Shown here: in pieces, positions 52,539 through 63,832 of the stretch
Numbering within the stretch: position 1 is the stretch's first letter
How the letters are laid out: every line of letters starts with the position of its first letter
Assembly (NCBI GenBank): GCA_018711625.1
Contig: DVID01000009.1
Location: forward strand, 1 to 64,000
Reading direction: 5' to 3'
From: Candidatus Limicola stercorigallinarum
Lineage (GTDB): Bacteria > Actinomycetota > Coriobacteriia > Coriobacteriales > Coriobacteriaceae
DNA length: 64,000 nucleotides
The notes under the pieces: generated by a model
The model's input: only the letters and a program-made list of their open reading frames with translations
The model's database searches: none
What the model was told of the DNA's origin: nothing
Translations under genes and position numbers: made by a program

Positions 52539-53786
52539 CTACAGTGCAAACACGCGCGCTGTGACGCTTGCGGGCACACCCTGGTCGTTTCGCACCGTGG
52601 CATAGGTGAGAAGTGTATCGGTGGTGCCTTCACTTGCCGGCCAATCGCCATACTCAATGGAATGGTCGGGTGAGGTAAGCACGGCGTAGGTTTGGGCCTG
52701 CGTATCGATGATGAAGTGCGACGCGCGCGACTTCACCACATATTTGGTGCCATAAGCGGCAACGCACGCCAGCGGCTCACGGCGCACATAGATATAGGGG
52801 CCGCCTTCGTTTCCCATAAAGGTGCCCATATTGCCCAGGCTACCCACCCCGTTGTACGAAGCCTCGATGGTAAACACGAAGGTGTCGTTGATATAGGTTG
52901 CGTCGAAGGGAGCCACACCGCTGGGCAGCACAAGCTGATTGCGGCGTGGGTGATCCGCGTCGGTGAGGTCGATTGCCGTCATGCCATAGTAGGTGCCCTC
53001 GTCCCGCACGCGCGGCGCAATCACGAGGATGCCGTCGGACACATGGGGGCTTCCAGCAAAGCGGCCGTGCGACGTCCACAGGTTGGTGCTCTCGGTATCA
53101 CCCAGGTTCCAGAGGTAGCAATGGGAATCCTCCGTGCTCTTTGAGCCTGTTGCGAGGGGCATCTTCTGCCAGATAACGCCGGTGTTCCACACGGTGAAGC
53201 GCGCCGGCTCCCAGTCGATGTCGCCCTCGTCGAGCTTCACCGCCTCACCGGTGAGTGTGCCGTCCGAGAAGCCCTGGGCAATGAGCACCCAGGAGCGCGT
53301 GGTGTAATCGACCTCCACCCAGGCCATCACCTGGCCAGAACATCGCACGTCAAAAAACCCGTACCCTGCACCCTGGGTGGGATCTTCAACAAGGGTAATG
53401 AGGTTTCCGCTGGAGAGGCTCAGCACGCCGAGCGTGTTGGCATGCCGGGCCGATTCAGGGGTGAGCATGGCTGCTGCCCACAGCCCTTGCGTATGGAAGA
53501 GCATGGTCCCCAGTGGAAGCGACCAGGTGGCAGCAGGCATGAGGGTGTTATCCACGTTCTCATAATCTTCGAGCACGTCGACAATCTGAGAGTCGTCGGT
53601 AACCACCTGAGGCTCGCCCGTGTTGGTATCGTCCTCACCGCCCGAGCACGAGCTCAAGGCAATCGAAGCGATACCGGCACCCGCTGCAGCAGCAAGGGAA
53701 CCAAGCGTAAACGCGCGGCGGCTCACCCCACGGGCGGCGTCGCCCGATGCAGCCTCTTTGGTTGTACGACTCCATGGCAGACGCAT
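52539..53786 (-). CDS. Tat-exported putative lipoprotein, beta-propeller-like (function unknown)
   Basis: SRRAFTLGSLAAAAGAGIASIALSSCSGG: twin-Arg plus lipobox. Confidence 0.8.
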   Translation of the reverse strand: MRLPWSRTTKEAASGDAARGVSRRAFTLGSLAAAAGAGIASIALSSCSGGEDDTNTGEPQVVTDDSQIVDVLEDYENVDNTLMPAATWSLPLGTMLFHTQGLWAAAMLTPESARHANTLGVLSLSSGNLITLVEDPTQGAGYGFFDVRCSGQVMAWVEVDYTTRSWVLIAQGFSDGTLTGEAVKLDEGDIDWEPARFTVWNTGVIWQKMPLATGSKSTEDSHCYLWNLGDTESTNLWTSHGRFAGSPHVSDGILVIAPRVRDEGTYYGMTAIDLTDADHPRRNQLVLPSGVAPFDATYINDTFVFTIEASYNGVGSLGNMGTFMGNEGGPYIYVRREPLACVAAYGTKYVVKSRASHFIIDTQAQTYAVLTSPDHSIEYGDWPASEGTTDTLLTYATVRNDQGVPASVTARVFAL

Positions 53787-54250: not shown

Positions 54251-54931
54251 CTACGCGGCGTCCGTCATCTGCGTCTGGGCGGCCCAACCCTTGGGCAGGT
54301 AGGTCATCTTGCCCTCGACATCAGCCGTGTCGGTCCAACCCTCGGGGACGTCACCCTCGCCCGCATAGGCGCCAATCTGGTGGCAGCCCGTGCAGGTGAG
54401 CACGCTCTGGTCGTGCATGCGGTGGCAGCTGTTGCACTGCTGCACCACACCGCCGTGATACGTGCTGTGCGGGTCGAAGCCCCAGTCCTTGGTGGAGGAC
54501 TCGGTAGCGCCCGGCATCACGCCAGCGCCCGTGTGGCAACCGCTCTGCAGGCAGAAGTCGTTGGAGTACACGACCTTCTCCATGGGGTCAGAGTAGTCGC
54601 CCGTGAGCTGCACCTGCACCTCATGCATCGACTGCGCAAAGGTGGTCTCGTGGCAGCCGAGGCACTGGTTGTTCACCACGCCCTTGTGGGCATAGGCGAG
54701 CGAGGTGGTGTCGTTCACAAACGAGTCGTAGTAACGACCCATGGTGCTGTGGCACAGCGTGTCGCAGTACTCAGGGGTGGCGCGCCAGGCCCAGCCGGCA
54801 ACGCCGAGCACCGTAACAACCACAACAGCGGCAATCACGATGGGAAGACGCTTGGCCTTCCAGTTCTTCTTCTTTTTGGGAGCAGCCTCGGTGGCCTGGG
54901 CCTCCGTGCCCTCCTTGATCTCGTCAGCCAT
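54251..54931 (-). CDS. Membrane-anchored pentaheme c-type cytochrome (NrfH/NapC or cytochrome c3-like)
   Basis: Single N-terminal TM; heme motifs CDTLCH (CX3CH), CLGCH, CLQSGCH (CX4CH), CNSCH, CTGCH. Confidence 0.88.
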   Translation of the reverse strand: MADEIKEGTEAQATEAAPKKKKNWKAKRLPIVIAAVVVVTVLGVAGWAWRATPEYCDTLCHSTMGRYYDSFVNDTTSLAYAHKGVVNNQCLGCHETTFAQSMHEVQVQLTGDYSDPMEKVVYSNDFCLQSGCHTGAGVMPGATESSTKDWGFDPHSTYHGGVVQQCNSCHRMHDQSVLTCTGCHQIGAYAGEGDVPEGWTDTADVEGKMTYLPKGWAAQTQMTDAA

Positions 54932-54951: not shown

Positions 54952-57201
54952 TTAGGCGCTGAGCGCCGGGTTGTTGTCGCAGTACTCAGACAAAACGCCA
55001 TCATAGGTGCGCGTACGCTCGTCGTAGGGCGTGCCGCCATCAGGCAGGAGACCAAGCTCCTCGAGGTCCTTGGCCACATTGTCGAGGCCAAGGTCGCTGA
55101 GGCACTGCTTGGTGGGGCAACCCAGCTCCTCGTCCCAACCAAAGCGCTTATACACCATGGTAAGGGCGGTCTGGAAGTCTTCCTTCTCCATCTTGTCGGT
55201 ACCAGCGGTGAAGGGCTCGATGTCAGGATCCTTGGTGAAGGGCCACTCGGTAATGACATCATGGACGTTGCGGAAGTCGTTGCAGCCCATGTTGCCGTCC
55301 TTGTCCTTCATGCCGCGGACAGTGTTGGCGCGTTGGAGCGTCATGACGCGCTCAGCAGCCTTATAGAGGTCGTCGATCGTGACCTCCTTGCCGGTGACCG
55401 CGGTGTAGAACTGGGCCTCGAGGTCCAGGTCGCCACGATACTTGCGCTCCTTGGCGGGGGCCATGGCCATCGGCCACACCCAGTTGCAGACCGTGAGGCA
55501 GTCATGCAGAACGTCGGTGACGATGCTCCACCAGCAGAACTCCGCCTTGTGCTCGTTCATGGGCGTGTAGTTCTTGTCCGGGTCGATGGCGTCCTCGCCA
55601 CCCCACATCTCGGCAGCCATCTCCTTCTTGAGGTCGATGGGCAGGCCGCAGCCCTGGAAGTTAACGGCAGAGTGAATCATGTCGTCGCGGTTGAACATCA
55701 TGTTGTACACGCCGCCAACCTGGCCGTAGCACTCGATGGCGTGGTGAACAGGCCAACCACGATAGTTGATGAGGCACGAAGCGGTGGTGTCGAACCACTC
55801 CATGTCGTTCCACTTCTCGCACCACACCATGGGGCCATAGCCGAGCCAAGCGATGGGCTTGTTCTCGGTGTCGTTGAAGGCGATGTCGGTGAGGATCTTA
55901 ATGAAGGGGGTGCCGTCACCAGCCATGATCTGCTCAAAGTGGTAATCGGCGAAGTTGGGGCACTCGCGCTCAAGGATGCCGCTCACATAGGTGTGAGCAA
56001 GGTCACGGTAGAGCTGAGCGTAGTTGCACCACAGGCCAAGGTCGTCCACGGCAGCCTGGATGAGCAGGTTGTAGACAACGGACTGCTCGGTGAGCGTGCC
56101 CTCCTCGGTGGTGGTGCCAGGCACCTTCATGATGGACTGCATGTAGCTCGAGAACGGGAAGTTAGGCACGCAGGTGTTGCCCATCGACTCGTAACCCGTC
56201 TTCTCAAGAACGGTGGGGTGCTTCACCTGAGCGTAGCAGCGCACGGGGCAGCCGTGGCAACCAGCCATCTTGACGGTGTACTTCTCGGCCTCGGGGCCCA
56301 GGTCCTTGGTGGACTTCATGCAGCGGTAACCCATGGTGTTGGGCTCAAACGGCTTGGGCTCGCCGGTCTCGATGGGGCCACCCTCGGCAGCTGCCCAGTA
56401 GAGACCCTTACGTGCGGTCCAACGCGAACCCTTGTCGTAGTATTCGGCCCACGACTGTTGGGTGCTCGGAACCACATGGTTGTTGTTGGAGCCCAGCACC
56501 TCGGCGATCATGTAGTCGGAGAGGTCGGCAACCATCTGCGGGTCGGCAACGTTCACGGCCTTAGTGCCGTGCACCACGAGGGCCTTGCAGTTCTTGGAAC
56601 CCAGGACGGCGCCCAAGCCCGCGCCCGCGGAGTGCGAACGGGTGTTGATAACGCACGCATAGGGCAGCAGATTCTCGCCAGCCGGGCCGATGGTGGCCAC
56701 GCAGGCGTCGAGGCCGTGCTTCTTGCAGAGCGCCTCGTTGGTCTCGCGGGTGCCCTTGCCCCACACGGAGGAAGCGTCCTCGATCGAGATTTTGTCGTCA
56801 TCGATGAGAATGTAGACCGGCTTCTCAGACTTACCCTCGATGATCACGCCGTCGTGACCCGAGTACTTGAGCATAGCGCCCAGCTGGCCGCCGCAGTGGC
56901 AGTCAACAACCTGGTAGTCGGTCGTGAACGTGGAAAGGGTCGCCCACGTGGAGCGGCCGCCCAGAGGCACACCGGAGCCGGTGAGCGGGCCCACGGCGAG
57001 AACGGCCTTGTTCTCGGGCGCATCCCACGCGGTGCCAGCAGGCACCTCGTCATACATGATCTTGTTCGCGAAGCCCATGCCGCCGATGTAATCTTCCTGC
57101 ATCGCCTCATCGGACTCGACGGAGATCGTGCCGTCCGTCAGGTTGACACGGACAATCGAGCCCGCCCAACCATACGATCCATAAGTGGCAGTGTCAGCCA
57201 T
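54952..57201 (-). CDS. Aldehyde:ferredoxin oxidoreductase family protein (W/Mo-bis-pterin; AOR/YdhV-like)
   Basis: 749 aa; GWAGSIVRVNLTDGTISVE N-terminus, GCHGCPVRC (CXXCXXXC cluster motif), AGLGAVLGSKNCKALVVHGTK, later Cys in CLTVCNW. Confidence 0.92.
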   Translation of the reverse strand: MADTATYGSYGWAGSIVRVNLTDGTISVESDEAMQEDYIGGMGFANKIMYDEVPAGTAWDAPENKAVLAVGPLTGSGVPLGGRSTWATLSTFTTDYQVVDCHCGGQLGAMLKYSGHDGVIIEGKSEKPVYILIDDDKISIEDASSVWGKGTRETNEALCKKHGLDACVATIGPAGENLLPYACVINTRSHSAGAGLGAVLGSKNCKALVVHGTKAVNVADPQMVADLSDYMIAEVLGSNNNHVVPSTQQSWAEYYDKGSRWTARKGLYWAAAEGGPIETGEPKPFEPNTMGYRCMKSTKDLGPEAEKYTVKMAGCHGCPVRCYAQVKHPTVLEKTGYESMGNTCVPNFPFSSYMQSIMKVPGTTTEEGTLTEQSVVYNLLIQAAVDDLGLWCNYAQLYRDLAHTYVSGILERECPNFADYHFEQIMAGDGTPFIKILTDIAFNDTENKPIAWLGYGPMVWCEKWNDMEWFDTTASCLINYRGWPVHHAIECYGQVGGVYNMMFNRDDMIHSAVNFQGCGLPIDLKKEMAAEMWGGEDAIDPDKNYTPMNEHKAEFCWWSIVTDVLHDCLTVCNWVWPMAMAPAKERKYRGDLDLEAQFYTAVTGKEVTIDDLYKAAERVMTLQRANTVRGMKDKDGNMGCNDFRNVHDVITEWPFTKDPDIEPFTAGTDKMEKEDFQTALTMVYKRFGWDEELGCPTKQCLSDLGLDNVAKDLEELGLLPDGGTPYDERTRTYDGVLSEYCDNNPALSA

Positions 57202-57210
57202 TGGTATCTC

Positions 57211-57939
57211 CTAACTTCTACGCGATCTTGCCATAGCGATGAAGTCCTGCTGCTCGCTGACGAGCGGCAGCGGGTTCTCCTGCTTGGTGGGACCGGACGA
57301 GTGGTTGACGTTCTCCCACTCGACGAACTCGAGGGCGCCATTGGGGCACTGCTCGGCGCAACGGCCGCAAGCAACGCACTTGGAGGACTTGCCGGTGACG
57401 GTGTTCACCACAGGCATGTGATAGGGGCATGCAGCCACGCAAGCGCCGCAACCAACGCACTTCTCGTTGTCGACATAGCGGATACCGTTGTCGTCGGTGA
57501 GGATGGCGCCGTGCGGGCACGCTGTCTGGCACATAGCAGCCTTGCACATGTGGCACTGACGGATGTTCCACTCCATGGAGTAGTAGATACCGTCGCCCGA
57601 GCCGAGCTCCTTGCCGTAGTAGAACCCGTCATGCACGTGGATACGGGCAGCCGCCGGCTGGGACACGCCGTCGTTCTGCAGCGTGCAGCTCATCTCGCAG
57701 CGCTGGCAACCGGTGCACTTGGCGCGGTTGATCTTCAGCACGTGCGACGGAGCGGCATAGTAGTCCACCTTGCCGTTCGAGGTCGTCGGGACGGCGGCAG
57801 CCTCGTCGGGCAGCATGCCGAGCGCCACCATGCTCGCCACGAACGCGCTCGAAACCTTAACGAACCCCCTACGGGTGAAGAAGGCGTCGAGCCGGTCCGC
57901 GCCGGAGCCAACCTGCTCCAAAGCGGTGTTCTCGTTCAT
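57211..57939 (-). CDS. Tat-exported ferredoxin-type electron transfer subunit with four [4Fe-4S] motifs
   Basis: TRRGFVKVSSAFVASMVALGML Tat-like leader; CTGCQRCEMSC, CHMCKAAMCQTACP, CVGCGACVAACP, CVACGRCAEQCP. Confidence 0.9.
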   Translation of the reverse strand: MNENTALEQVGSGADRLDAFFTRRGFVKVSSAFVASMVALGMLPDEAAAVPTTSNGKVDYYAAPSHVLKINRAKCTGCQRCEMSCTLQNDGVSQPAAARIHVHDGFYYGKELGSGDGIYYSMEWNIRQCHMCKAAMCQTACPHGAILTDDNGIRYVDNEKCVGCGACVAACPYHMPVVNTVTGKSSKCVACGRCAEQCPNGALEFVEWENVNHSSGPTKQENPLPLVSEQQDFIAMARSRRS

Positions 57940-58055
57940 AGTTCCCTCCCCTATGATGTTCACGGATCTTGTGACCCGCACTACAGATATGACCGGACGC
58001 ATGGCGAGTGCGCCCAATTAGTCATGGTGTATTGTCCAATATTTTCTTCACAGAC

Positions 58056-58131
58056 TGTTCACCTTCTTGCGGGTAATTTGCTCAAGAAGGCCGCACCATG
58101 CCCCACCTGCGTGTCACCTGTTTGAGGGTAT
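58056..58131. promoter_or_regulatory. Two candidate operator copies upstream of the AOR operon: TGTTCACCTTCTTGCGGGTAA (58056-58076) and GTGTCACCTGTTTGAGGGTAT (58111-58131)
   Basis: Similarity to each other and to motif at 59921-59943. Confidence 0.5.
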
Positions 58132-58270
58132 AGGGAAATCTATGCAGGTTGATAACGATAGGCAGGGTAGGTGGAGGAATTGATGCAAGAACGGGCGTGA
58201 GAGCCCAAGTGAGGGGACCCCCGTCGGGTGGGCGAGGCGCCTGAAGCGTACGCTGGCAATCGCCGCATGC

Positions 58271-59878
58271 TTAGCGATTGCCGTATTCGTTGATGTAATC
58301 CAGAATCTCCTGGCGCGAGTGCAAGTCGGTCTTGTCGTAGATGCGCTTGATGTGCGTGTGCACCGTGTTCTGCGACAGCTGGAGCTCCTCGCTTACACGG
58401 GCCTGTGTGTGACCCAGAGCATAGAGGGTGAGCACCTCTATCTCGCGCCCTGTAAGGCCAAAGCGCTGCCCCATTGCAATGACCGACGTGGCGATGCGCG
58501 TATCGGGGTTAGCGCTCGGGAGAGACACCTCTGCCTGAGGCGCGAGGGCAAGCACGCCCATAAGGGGGATGCGACGCACGTCGTCACGCGTGATGGGGCC
58601 ACGCTCCTGCTCGGGCGCTACCCCTTCGGTGCGGGCGTTCTCGCTCATCTGAGAAGGCGCCGCAAGCAGCTGCGTGAACACCACCTGCGCGCTGATGAGC
58701 ACGCAAAGTCCCATGATGGCGATGATAACGGCTGTGTTATCGGCAAATACGCCCGTAAGCGCACGGTCGAGCTTCATGCCTACGAGGGTGAAGCCATGCA
58801 TGGTGATCCATGCGCCGGCAGCGTAATAGTAGGGGTCACGCCTGCCAAAACTAATAAACGCTATGGTGAGATACCAAATAAACGCCTGCAACACCAAAGC
58901 CGCAGCCATGATGAAGGACGCCCCTACACCGATCGACTTAGGCCAAATGGCGAAGAAGATGGCACCAAGGGCAAGGAGTGTCTCCATAACCACCCAGATG
59001 CTCGTTGTGATGGCACGCATGCGCGAGGCAAGGCCGTTGCGCACCCATACCGCGGCAACGATGCCCACAAAGAGGAGCACCATAAAGCGAGGCACGGGAC
59101 TCAAATAGATAGCATTGCCCGCGGGGAAGGCACGTCCCATGCCCATGGGAATGGAGATAAACCAAAACCCCAGCGCCGCCACCGCAAGAAAACTCCTATT
59201 GGAGAAACGATGCGCGTCGGTGCCAAAATACGACTCCGAAACCGCGGGGAACACATCGCTTGCCACACCCATACGCCGTGAGGCGCGCACAAACAAAAAC
59301 TGTGTAAAGGCGAACAAAAACGCCGCCCCATGCGCGGCTGCGGGCGGGCAAAAGCTGAGCACAAACGTGACAAACTCTGACACCACCAGGGCGCAGAAGG
59401 CCACAACCACCACTGCCTGGGCCGATGTGCCTCTCAGCTTCCTCATCCAGTAAAAACTCAAGAGCGCCGCCGCGATGCCCACCACGCATTCCAGCGCGGC
59501 AGTGAGCATGGCCGGAACCGCTTGGGTAACATCGGTAAATACCAGGAGCAGCGCCGCAAGCCCCGATACGTGCACCGCAATAAAGGTGATGAGATGCACG
59601 GCGCGCTTTTCAAAACGCTTGAACACCACGGTTGCCGCCACCAGTAGAAGAAGAACAACGCATGCGGCAAGCATGGTGGCCCCACCATGGGAGGACACCC
59701 CGGCTGTGCGATGACCCTCCTGCAGCACCACGTTGACCATCGTGGTTGCAAGGGCAATGCCGGCGATAGGGGGAACGAGCACGCCATAAGATTGAGCATC
59801 AAACGGCGGCATGGCGGCATCTTCACGCGCGTTTGTTGCCGCTTTTTGACGCTCGGCCACCGTCATGCTCCTTTCCAT
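58271..59878 (-). CDS. LuxR family regulator with N-terminal multi-TM domain
   Basis: About 12 hydrophobic segments then FGLTGREIEVLTLYALGHTQARVSEELQLSQNTVHTHIKRIYDKTDLHSRQEIL. Confidence 0.93.
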   Translation of the reverse strand: MERSMTVAERQKAATNAREDAAMPPFDAQSYGVLVPPIAGIALATTMVNVVLQEGHRTAGVSSHGGATMLAACVVLLLLVAATVVFKRFEKRAVHLITFIAVHVSGLAALLLVFTDVTQAVPAMLTAALECVVGIAAALLSFYWMRKLRGTSAQAVVVVAFCALVVSEFVTFVLSFCPPAAAHGAAFLFAFTQFLFVRASRRMGVASDVFPAVSESYFGTDAHRFSNRSFLAVAALGFWFISIPMGMGRAFPAGNAIYLSPVPRFMVLLFVGIVAAVWVRNGLASRMRAITTSIWVVMETLLALGAIFFAIWPKSIGVGASFIMAAALVLQAFIWYLTIAFISFGRRDPYYYAAGAWITMHGFTLVGMKLDRALTGVFADNTAVIIAIMGLCVLISAQVVFTQLLAAPSQMSENARTEGVAPEQERGPITRDDVRRIPLMGVLALAPQAEVSLPSANPDTRIATSVIAMGQRFGLTGREIEVLTLYALGHTQARVSEELQLSQNTVHTHIKRIYDKTDLHSRQEILDYINEYGNR

Positions 59879-59902
59879 CTATAACCCATACCAATATGCG
59901 CT

Positions 59903-59943
59903 GTCACCCGCCCTTTTTAGGCGCGTCACCTGTTTTAGGTGAA
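59903..59943. promoter_or_regulatory. Candidate operator: GTCACCCGCCCTTTTTAGG (59903-59921) and GCGCGTCACCTGTTTTAGGTGAA (59921-59943)
   Basis: Contains perfect palindrome TCACCT-N5-AGGTGA in the luxR/60008 divergent intergenic region. Confidence 0.5.
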
Positions 59944-60007
59944 TAGCAGTATACCTTGTACTACACTCTTCTTCATATGGAGATCACGAACGCCAAGGGA
60001 GACAGCG

Positions 60008-60790
60008 ATGAATGAGCACGAGCACACCGCCGATGATGAGGTGCGCATAAGTGGAGCACCGGATACTCCCACGCCCGAAGTGGTTGACGCCGAGCCCACC
60101 GCCGAGGAGCTTGAGCGCATCCATACGCGAAACGCCTTTGTGCGCGCGCTCGACGCCTTGCTCACTGATATCCGCCAGCGCTCATATGAAGGCAAGATCA
60201 CCACAACCGCCCGTTGGAAAAAGCATTCGTTCCAACCTGAGGGTATGGAGGCGGCCGCTTTTGTAGAAGAGGCGCTTCTCTATATTCAGACACACGATCA
60301 TGCCGAAGCTCAAGAGGTGCGCGGCACGCTGATGGCTCCCAAGCCGCTCGATGTTCAGCTTGAGGGAAAGAACGTTTCCAACGATGACCCCCTGCCGGAG
60401 CCTGATGTGAGTGACATTGCGCTCCTCATGGGCAAAAAGGCAATCTACCTCTACTCGGCGGCCTTGATGTCGCATAGCTATGCCCACGCGCTCTTCCTCA
60501 CCTCGGAAAACGACAATGTGGCAACATTTGTGGACGTGGTGCGCACCGAATCGCGCGTGTATCCCAGGCCTGTTGCCGAAGACAGCTTTATGAATCCGCC
60601 CTATCTGTGGTCTCGTGCCAAAACACGCAAGGTCTACGAGAAGGCGCATGCCCTTGATGCATTTAAAGACATCCATGTCACCCGCACCAGCTTGGGCGAG
60701 CCGTACTATTACTCGGACCTATACCTTAGCGATGCCCAGGGCGCGGCACTTGCCCAGTGGTATGGCGTTGAGAAAGGCCTCAACCCATAA
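60008..60790 (+). CDS. Uncharacterised protein divergent from the LuxR regulator
   Basis: 260 aa, RBS-like ggagac upstream; GEPYYYSDLYLSDAQGAALAQWYGVEKG C-terminus. Confidence 0.75.
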   Translation: MNEHEHTADDEVRISGAPDTPTPEVVDAEPTAEELERIHTRNAFVRALDALLTDIRQRSYEGKITTTARWKKHSFQPEGMEAAAFVEEALLYIQTHDHAEAQEVRGTLMAPKPLDVQLEGKNVSNDDPLPEPDVSDIALLMGKKAIYLYSAALMSHSYAHALFLTSENDNVATFVDVVRTESRVYPRPVAEDSFMNPPYLWSRAKTRKVYEKAHALDAFKDIHVTRTSLGEPYYYSDLYLSDAQGAALAQWYGVEKGLNP

Positions 60791-60865: not shown

Positions 60866-61459
60866 ATGCCCAAGCAGCACATCACCCAAGACACGCCGTT
60901 TTTGCGCACGCCCGATATGTACCAGATTGAAAACGATGCGCCTATTACGGAGTATTCCGAGAAGTCACTTGACCTTATTGCCGATGCACGCAACGGCGGC
61001 ATCCCCGACGGCGCCAATGCATTTTGCAGCGTGGGTAAAGAGAAGCGCGGTACCGTGCAGATGCAGCTCTTTGCGGTAGTCAATCCGGACGAGGACCGCT
61101 TTGTAGAGGTGGGCTTCCGCAGCCACGGCTGCCTCGCGGCCATTGCCTGCGCCACCGTTGTCGCCGATATGCTCACCGGCAAGACGGTGACCGAGGCACT
61201 CGAGATCACACAAGACCAGATTCTCGAAGCGGTGGATGGCCTGCCTGATGGCCGCGTCTACACGCTGAACTTCGCCATTGAAGCAATCCGGGCGCTCGTA
61301 GGCGATTACTACCTGCGCGTGAAGGGCTATAACCTGGCCCAACTCGACGAGGTGGTACCCTGCGAGCGGATGTGTCTCAACTGCATCATCACCGAGAATT
61401 GCTCGCTGCGCGATGAGCGCGTTGATCAGGAACTGCGCGAGGCGGGTGAGATCGAGTAG
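60866..61459 (+). CDS. NifU/IscU-like iron-sulfur cluster scaffold protein
   Basis: VGFRSHGCLAAIACATVVADMLTGKTVTEALEIT and C-terminal CERMCLNCIITENC. Confidence 0.82.
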   Translation: MPKQHITQDTPFLRTPDMYQIENDAPITEYSEKSLDLIADARNGGIPDGANAFCSVGKEKRGTVQMQLFAVVNPDEDRFVEVGFRSHGCLAAIACATVVADMLTGKTVTEALEITQDQILEAVDGLPDGRVYTLNFAIEAIRALVGDYYLRVKGYNLAQLDEVVPCERMCLNCIITENCSLRDERVDQELREAGEIE

Positions 61460-63272: not shown

Positions 63273-63420
63273 CCAAAAACATTGCGATTTGTTGCAGTTT
63301 AGGGCACACCCTACGAGTAGACTTACCTTCGCGCGGAATAAAAACGCAGGTCACAGAGTTGGACTTTCCTCGTGTATCCGAGAGGTAGGGCCTAAACTGC
63401 AACAAATCGCAATGTTTTGG
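63273..63420. repeat. 148-bp MITE-like element with about 31-bp terminal inverted repeats
   Basis: CCAAAAACATTGCGATTTGTTGCAGTTTAGGGC (63273-63305) vs reverse complement of 63390-63420 CCAAAACATTGCGATTTGTTGCAGTTTAGGC. Confidence 0.75.
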
Positions 63421-63520: not shown

Positions 63521-63596
63521 GTCCGCGCACGGGGCCCGTATATGGAAAAGGCAGACGCTGGTGCCTTCAAATTCCTGGAGCGGGCAACGGGACTCG
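63521..63596. repeat. Partial duplicate of tRNA-Gly 3' end plus downstream terminator (copy A; copy B is 63701..63778)
   Basis: Direct repeat GTCCGCGCACGGGGCCCG...AAAAGGCA...GCTGGTGCCTTCAAATTCCTGGAGCGGGCAACGGGACTCG offset by 180-182 nt. Confidence 0.85.
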
Positions 63597-63757
63597 CGTA
63601 TTCGCTCCGCGAATCCGCAGCTTCGGATGCTTCGCATCCTCGCACGCTCGCTGGCAAACGCTCACGCGTTTGCTCAGCCTCGCGACCCCAGCGGGTTCGA
63701 GTCCGCGCACGGGGCCCGAATATGCAAAAGGCACCATCGCTGGTGCCTTCAAATTCC

Positions 63758-63832
63758 TGGAGCGGGCAACGGGACTCGAACCCGCGAGTGTCAGCTTGGG
63801 AAGCTGATGCCTTACCACTTGGCGATGCCCGC
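63758..63832 (-). tRNA. tRNA-Gly (CCC), CCA encoded
   Basis: Minus strand GCGGGCATCGCCAAGTGGTAAGGCATCAGCTTCCCAAGCTGACACTCGCGGGTTCGAGTCCCGTTGCCCGCTCCA. Confidence 0.95.

Follow-up and report, generated by a model that had tools for sequence, protein, structure and literature searches.

Mirror-image sequences lie in both intergenic regions beside a luxR gene in the window (the whole 64-kb stretch of DNA that was analysed), raising the question of whether they are control sites and, if so, which protein reads them and what they control. The earlier note had quoted these palindromes, all of which are present in the window, and had assigned them to the LuxR encoded between them. The genes and regions concerned are the following.

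54251-54931, minus strand: multihaem cytochrome c, Cgr1-like, last gene of the AOR operon (PF14537, 9.2e-07; NF051471, 6.5e-25)
54952-57201, minus strand: AOR/WorL-like oxidoreductase, YdhV type (PF02730, PF01314)
57211-57939, minus strand: ferredoxin-like subunit, PRK09898-like (Fer4 domains; NF007382, 2.1e-52)
57940-58270 and 59867-60007: intergenic regions flanking luxR
58271-59866, minus strand: luxR (ATG at 59866 with AAGGAG before it; a further open ATG lies upstream, at 59878)
60008-60790, plus strand: ydhW-like gene, 260 aa (NF007411 YdhW family, E 2.6e-30, under the curated cut-off)
60866-61459, plus strand: NifU_N-like Fe-S scaffold gene (PF01592, 3e-18; TIGR03419, 6.8e-22)

The luxR product ends in a GerE/LuxR helix-turn-helix (HTH) domain (PF00196, 1e-12, above the gathering score), whose solved relatives include NarL and VraR. 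Its AlphaFold2 model (pLDDT 86.7) consists of 12 long helices, a low-confidence linker and then the HTH; hydropathy gives 10-11 transmembrane helices, and the membrane part matches the MFS transporter fold (Foldseek, best E 3.1e-05, TM-score ~0.5). No receiver domain was found in a Pfam scan, the N-terminal part being made of membrane helices. The same N-terminal 12-TM part and C-terminal LuxR/GerE HTH are found in the 10-12-TM LuxRs of Coriobacteriia (DadR, HcdR and CadR; PMC9734109), and the window LuxR is a new member of this known family. DadR, HcdR and CadR respond to their substrates by activating the operons next to them (PMC9734109) and, like the window luxR, are encoded beside a metal-dependent redox enzyme; the molybdenum/flavin-dependent enzyme near luxR belongs to the adjacent AOR operon, in 22 of the 26 Coriobacteriaceae loci and most of the Eggerthellaceae loci examined. 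In contrast to these regulators, the window luxR stands beside a Ydh-like AOR and a ydhW-nifU operon, and a predicted operator could be defined for it; no operator for TM-LuxRs was found in the open-licence literature, including PMC9734109 and its follow-ups.

The large subunit of the neighbouring enzyme scores 953.9 bits against NF007354 (6.1e-287; curated cut-off 868), making it YdhV-type, and the ferredoxin-like subunit has an N-terminal Tat-like leader with RRGFVKV, as read from its sequence (FFTRRGFVKVSSAFVASMVA). The gene at 60008, which the earlier note had left as an unknown, is a YdhW relative by its NF007411 match. A YdhV-type AOR, a ferredoxin-like subunit and a YdhW-like protein are common to this module and to the E. 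coli ydhYVWXUT and class V (WOR41) tungsten-molybdenum oxidoreductase systems (PMC13328260), whereas the coriobacterial module adds the NifU-like gene, the Cgr1-like cytochrome and a dedicated LuxR to the E. coli set. Carriers of class V WOR include Collinsella, Eggerthella, Gordonibacter and Slackia (PMC13328260), and the genera with the module match the carriers listed there (clade 41). Judged by its gene content, the AOR module is a coriobacterial version of the Ydh/class V WOR system.

The NifU_N-like protein could serve Fe-S or cofactor maturation of AOR; its C-terminal part also has additional cysteines (CERMCLNCIITENC) of a kind that a plain IscU/SufU scaffold does not usually have. A 415-aa Tat-leader-like protein with no NCBIfam match is encoded at 52539-53786, downstream of the AOR operon; it stays in that place in most orthologous loci whose stretch reaches it and is possibly part of the AOR system. 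Elsewhere in the window, the 3′ end of a tRNA-Gly(CCC) gene (63758-63832, minus strand) is overlapped by a 41-nt perfect direct repeat (63556-63596 and 63738-63778, 182 bp apart), a partial duplication of the tRNA such as integrating elements leave behind; near this duplication lie 35-nt inverted repeats (63276-63310 and 63384-63418, 91% complementary, 73 bp apart).

Three predicted operators were located around luxR.

59926-59942: predicted operator 1, in the luxR/ydhW divergent region, a perfect TCACCT-N5-AGGTGA, TCACCTGTTTTAGGTGA
58114-58130: predicted operator 2, the distal site of the ferredoxin-AOR promoter, TCACCTGTTTGAGGGTA
58059-58075: predicted operator 3, the proximal and weaker site, TCACCTTCTTGCGGGTA, followed by a conserved ATTT

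All three fit one 17-bp palindrome, TCACCT-N5-AGGTGA, the last two as variants. Scored with a weight matrix whose training sites came from genera g3 and g4 only, they reach 26.4, 21.8 and 11.3 bits and rank 1-3 in the window, where the next-best match has 7.0 bits. Because matrix maxima in first-order Markov random 64-kb sequences average 10.0 and reach 17.7, the support for the third-best match, the 11.3-bit site at 58059-58075, comes mainly from conservation and spacing. A fourth proposed site at 59903 (GTCACCCGCCCTTTTTAGG) scored below -25 bits in four registers tried and was rejected as spurious. The motif is essentially unique to the luxR locus in the 1.96-Mb genome and so passed the genome-wide frequency test that the earlier note had set for it: TCACCTGTTTKAGG has two exact matches, both there, and no single-mismatch match, and the degenerate palindrome TMMCCT-N5-AGGKKA (TMMCCTNNNNNAGGKKA) likewise has exactly two, both at luxR, its reversed control having none. 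In each of two congeners the degenerate pattern occupies both orthologous places, with one extra match in one of them.

Conservation was assessed in 67 Coriobacteriaceae genomes, with LuxR orthologues in 26 and none in 41, relatives in these counts being non-independent samples. luxR, ydhW and nifU are linked in every one of the 26, and 22 also have the ferredoxin-AOR-cytochrome operon close by. With the threshold set at 15 bits, the luxR-bearing genomes have a site in 22/26 of their luxR/ydhW divergent regions and in 21/22 of the ferredoxin-AOR ones; no control promoter, taken from upstream of four other conserved genes, reached it (0/86), nor did any shuffled promoter (0/1920). The g3 and g4 scores are partly circular, since the training sites come from scored regions, which leaves the window, g1, g2 and the second family as independent tests. 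When both the window genus and g2 were left out of the training, the matrix still recovered the sites in each of them. A recognisable divergent site is absent from four luxR-bearing Collinsella-group genomes (G020, G028, G043 and G045). Perfect copies of TCACCTN5AGGTGA occupy 18 places in the 67 genomes, 14 of them at the luxR/AOR module and three elsewhere in luxR-bearing genomes; the remaining one, in G059, is the only copy in all 41 luxR-free genomes together. Conservation in orthologous promoters, the second test set by the earlier note, thus extends across four genera, with a variant in a second family.

The second family, Eggerthellaceae, was recognised from its gene content and from the genera named in published work. 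In these bacteria and their neighbours, LuxRs ~30-35% identical to that of the window lie in the same module (luxR-ydhW/nifU-AOR-Fer), where the site takes the form TACCCT-N5-AGGGTA, typically TACCCTCAAAGAGGGTA, placed in the AOR/ferredoxin divergent region ~120 bp ahead of AOR and frequently accompanied by another ~48 bp from it; some loci have no site at low mismatch. Twenty whole Eggerthellaceae genomes contain nine perfect TACCCTN5AGGGTA copies, all between AOR and ferredoxin. Since all nine lie there although E. lenta has 83 transmembrane LuxRs (PMC9734109), the operator looks specific to this LuxR lineage rather than common to all TM-LuxRs. It is almost certain that the mirror-image sequences flanking luxR are genuine control sites; both gut-bacterial families examined have kept them beside the same tungsten/molybdenum-enzyme genes.

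The arrangement of the sites relative to the promoters could be described with two further elements.

58032-58037, minus strand: probable -10 element of the ferredoxin-AOR promoter, GACAAT on this strand, predicted from a conserved ATTGT
59949-59967, plus strand: conserved core GTATACCTTGTACTACACT of the ydhW-nifU promoter

Within this core, TGTACTACACT (59957-59967) is probably the extended -10 of the ydhW-nifU promoter, as its sequence suggests, and the strictly conserved GTATACCT may be the site of a second regulator; the whole core is single-copy in 22 luxR-bearing Coriobacteriaceae genomes and missing from the other 45 searched. In most orthologues, the centre of the proximal ferredoxin site is 30-31 bp from the -10-like hexamer (ATTGT on the plus strand), and the distal site lies 54-57 bp upstream of the proximal one. 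The centre of the divergent site lies 22-24 bp upstream of TGTACTACACT in most luxR-bearing genomes; four others have it displaced by 12-13 bp, roughly one turn of the helix (nearer in G002 and G004, further in G054 and G055). This spacing persists amid diverged flanking sequence, and neither proposed -10 overlaps an operator. The divergent site seems to be built for the ydhW-nifU promoter, because its distance to luxR varies. Of the single regulon that the earlier note had drawn up, the AOR operon and ydhW-nifU stand, both carrying conserved sites, but autoregulation of luxR is unsupported given this variable spacing.

Genomes in which the module has been rearranged or reduced link the sites to luxR. 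G001-G004 have their AOR operon away from luxR, elsewhere in the genome, and it retains the tandem palindromes, as a perfect TACCCTGTTTGAGGGTA in G002 and G004 and as TCCCCT-N5-AGGGGA in G001 and G003. In G021, G033, G034 and G044 the ydhW-nifU-ferredoxin-AOR genes are intact, but both luxR and the palindromes are missing. These four form one clade nested among luxR-bearing genomes in the AOR tree, so luxR and the palindromes were lost in a single evolutionary event; the sister pair of this clade, G028 and G045, is already without the divergent site. No replacement regulator was found beside ydhW in luxR-minus Collinsella, the upstream gene being a TypA-like GTPase, as named from its sequence. 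The ferredoxin-AOR promoters of luxR-less genomes (L105, L106, L107 and L108) contain another palindrome, ATTATTCT-N6-AGAATAAT, in a perfect copy upstream of ferredoxin in 4/4 genomes with AOR and without luxR, and a regulator swap at this promoter is possible. Among LuxR orthologues the HTH is 88-97% identical to that of the window and the sensor only 36-70%, as would be expected if DNA specificity had been held constant. One-to-one covariation of recognition helix and half-site gave no simple code, since G002 and G004 share the window's recognition helix yet have TACCCT sites. Most likely the palindromes are bound by the neighbouring membrane-embedded LuxR, as their co-occurrence with luxR suggests for three of the four sites assigned to it in the earlier note, 59903 being the exception.

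The closest known counterparts of the sites are those of NarL/NarP at yeaR and ogt (PMC4549865, PMC7419079), whose regulators share HTH homology with LuxR and whose inverted TACCC...GGGTA half-sites are common to both systems. The half-site TACCC matches an engineered NarL site, TACCCCTAAAGGGGTA (PMC4549865), the predicted operator having one extra spacer base. NarL sites and those of the ferredoxin promoter are both tandem, with the proximal one near -44. The NarL operator is, however, a 16-bp 7-2-7 element, whereas the predicted operators are 17 bp throughout (6-5-6, or 7-3-7): they do not resolve into two TACYYMT-like heptamers 2 bp apart, TACCC appears in part of the sites, and the Coriobacteriaceae half-site is mostly TCACCT, unlike that of NarL. 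NarL also relies on a phosphorylated receiver domain, in place of which the window LuxR has a membrane sensor.

Taken together, we propose, with a probability of roughly 0.83, that the three palindromes are operators of the LuxR encoded between them, which would activate the AOR and ydhW-nifU operons on induction. A membrane sensor with a cytoplasmic NarL-type HTH would bind TMMCCT-N5-AGGKKA as a dimer, and an inducer, perhaps a substrate of AOR, would be perceived by the 12-TM MFS-like part, leading to activation of two transcription units. At the ferredoxin-AOR-cytochrome operon, the proximal of the tandem sites, ~30 bp upstream of the -10 and centred near -43, would be assisted by the distal site ~55 bp further upstream; at the divergent ydhW-nifU operon, activation would go through a single site centred near -40. 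A membrane-tethered dimer that activates from the proximal sites when ligand is present, helped at the ferredoxin promoter by the distal one, would be the likeliest scheme by analogy with DadR, HcdR and CadR (PMC9734109) and with NarL at ogt (PMC7419079), and it is on this basis that LuxR probably activates both the Ydh-like operon and the divergent one.

LuxR might instead bind these sites as a repressor that is displaced by ligand, as palindromes adjoining promoters are compatible with repression and NarL represses from some of its sites (PMC4549865). We consider this unlikely: the characterised 12-TM LuxRs activate (PMC9734109), neither proposed -10 is covered by an operator, and the arrangement, with centres at about -40 to -43 and another site further up, is like that of ogt, which NarL activates from -44.5 and -77.5 (PMC7419079). 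Somewhat less probable still is a regulator encoded elsewhere, such as a soluble NarL-type, Rrf2 or FNR-like protein sensing metal, Fe-S or redox status. The E. coli ydhYVWXUT operon is under the unlinked FNR, NarL and NarP (Partridge et al. 2008, as cited in PMC10845959), one other LuxR-type HTH protein was found in the genome (G000:C23), and an unlinked reader of the site could travel with luxR; nevertheless, the motif tracks the presence and absence of luxR, adjoins it in 22 of 26 genomes, and is almost confined to the AOR module in the genus and in the 20 Eggerthellaceae genomes. That the palindromes are chance matches or non-regulatory repeats (terminators, RNA hairpins) is very improbable, since short half-sites and a proximal score within the random-sequence maxima are set against the uniqueness of the motif, its fixed spacing in diverged flanks, and the empty control and shuffled promoters; a search of 57900-60100 for an RNA element gave no Rfam match.

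With activation by the neighbouring LuxR as the preferred reading, this would likely be the first operator to be linked to a member of the coriobacterial MFS-LuxR ('transceptor-like') family: a NarL-like palindrome of 17 bp, specific enough to be essentially restricted to its own module even where TM-LuxR paralogues number in the dozens, preserved in both families and governing a class V tungsten/molybdenum oxidoreductase together with ydhW-nifU. Neither a physiological role nor an inducer is known for class V WOR/Ydh enzymes (PMC13328260), and inducers in the 12-TM LuxR family have matched the substrate of the neighbouring enzyme (PMC9734109), so that the defined operator would offer a ready reporter promoter for inducer screening. 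It would also tie YdhW and the NifU-like protein to AOR as one regulon. Furthermore, gut Coriobacteriia carry scores of 12-TM LuxRs with undefined DNA targets (PMC9734109), and this operator could serve as a template for reading other TM-LuxR operators by footprinting.
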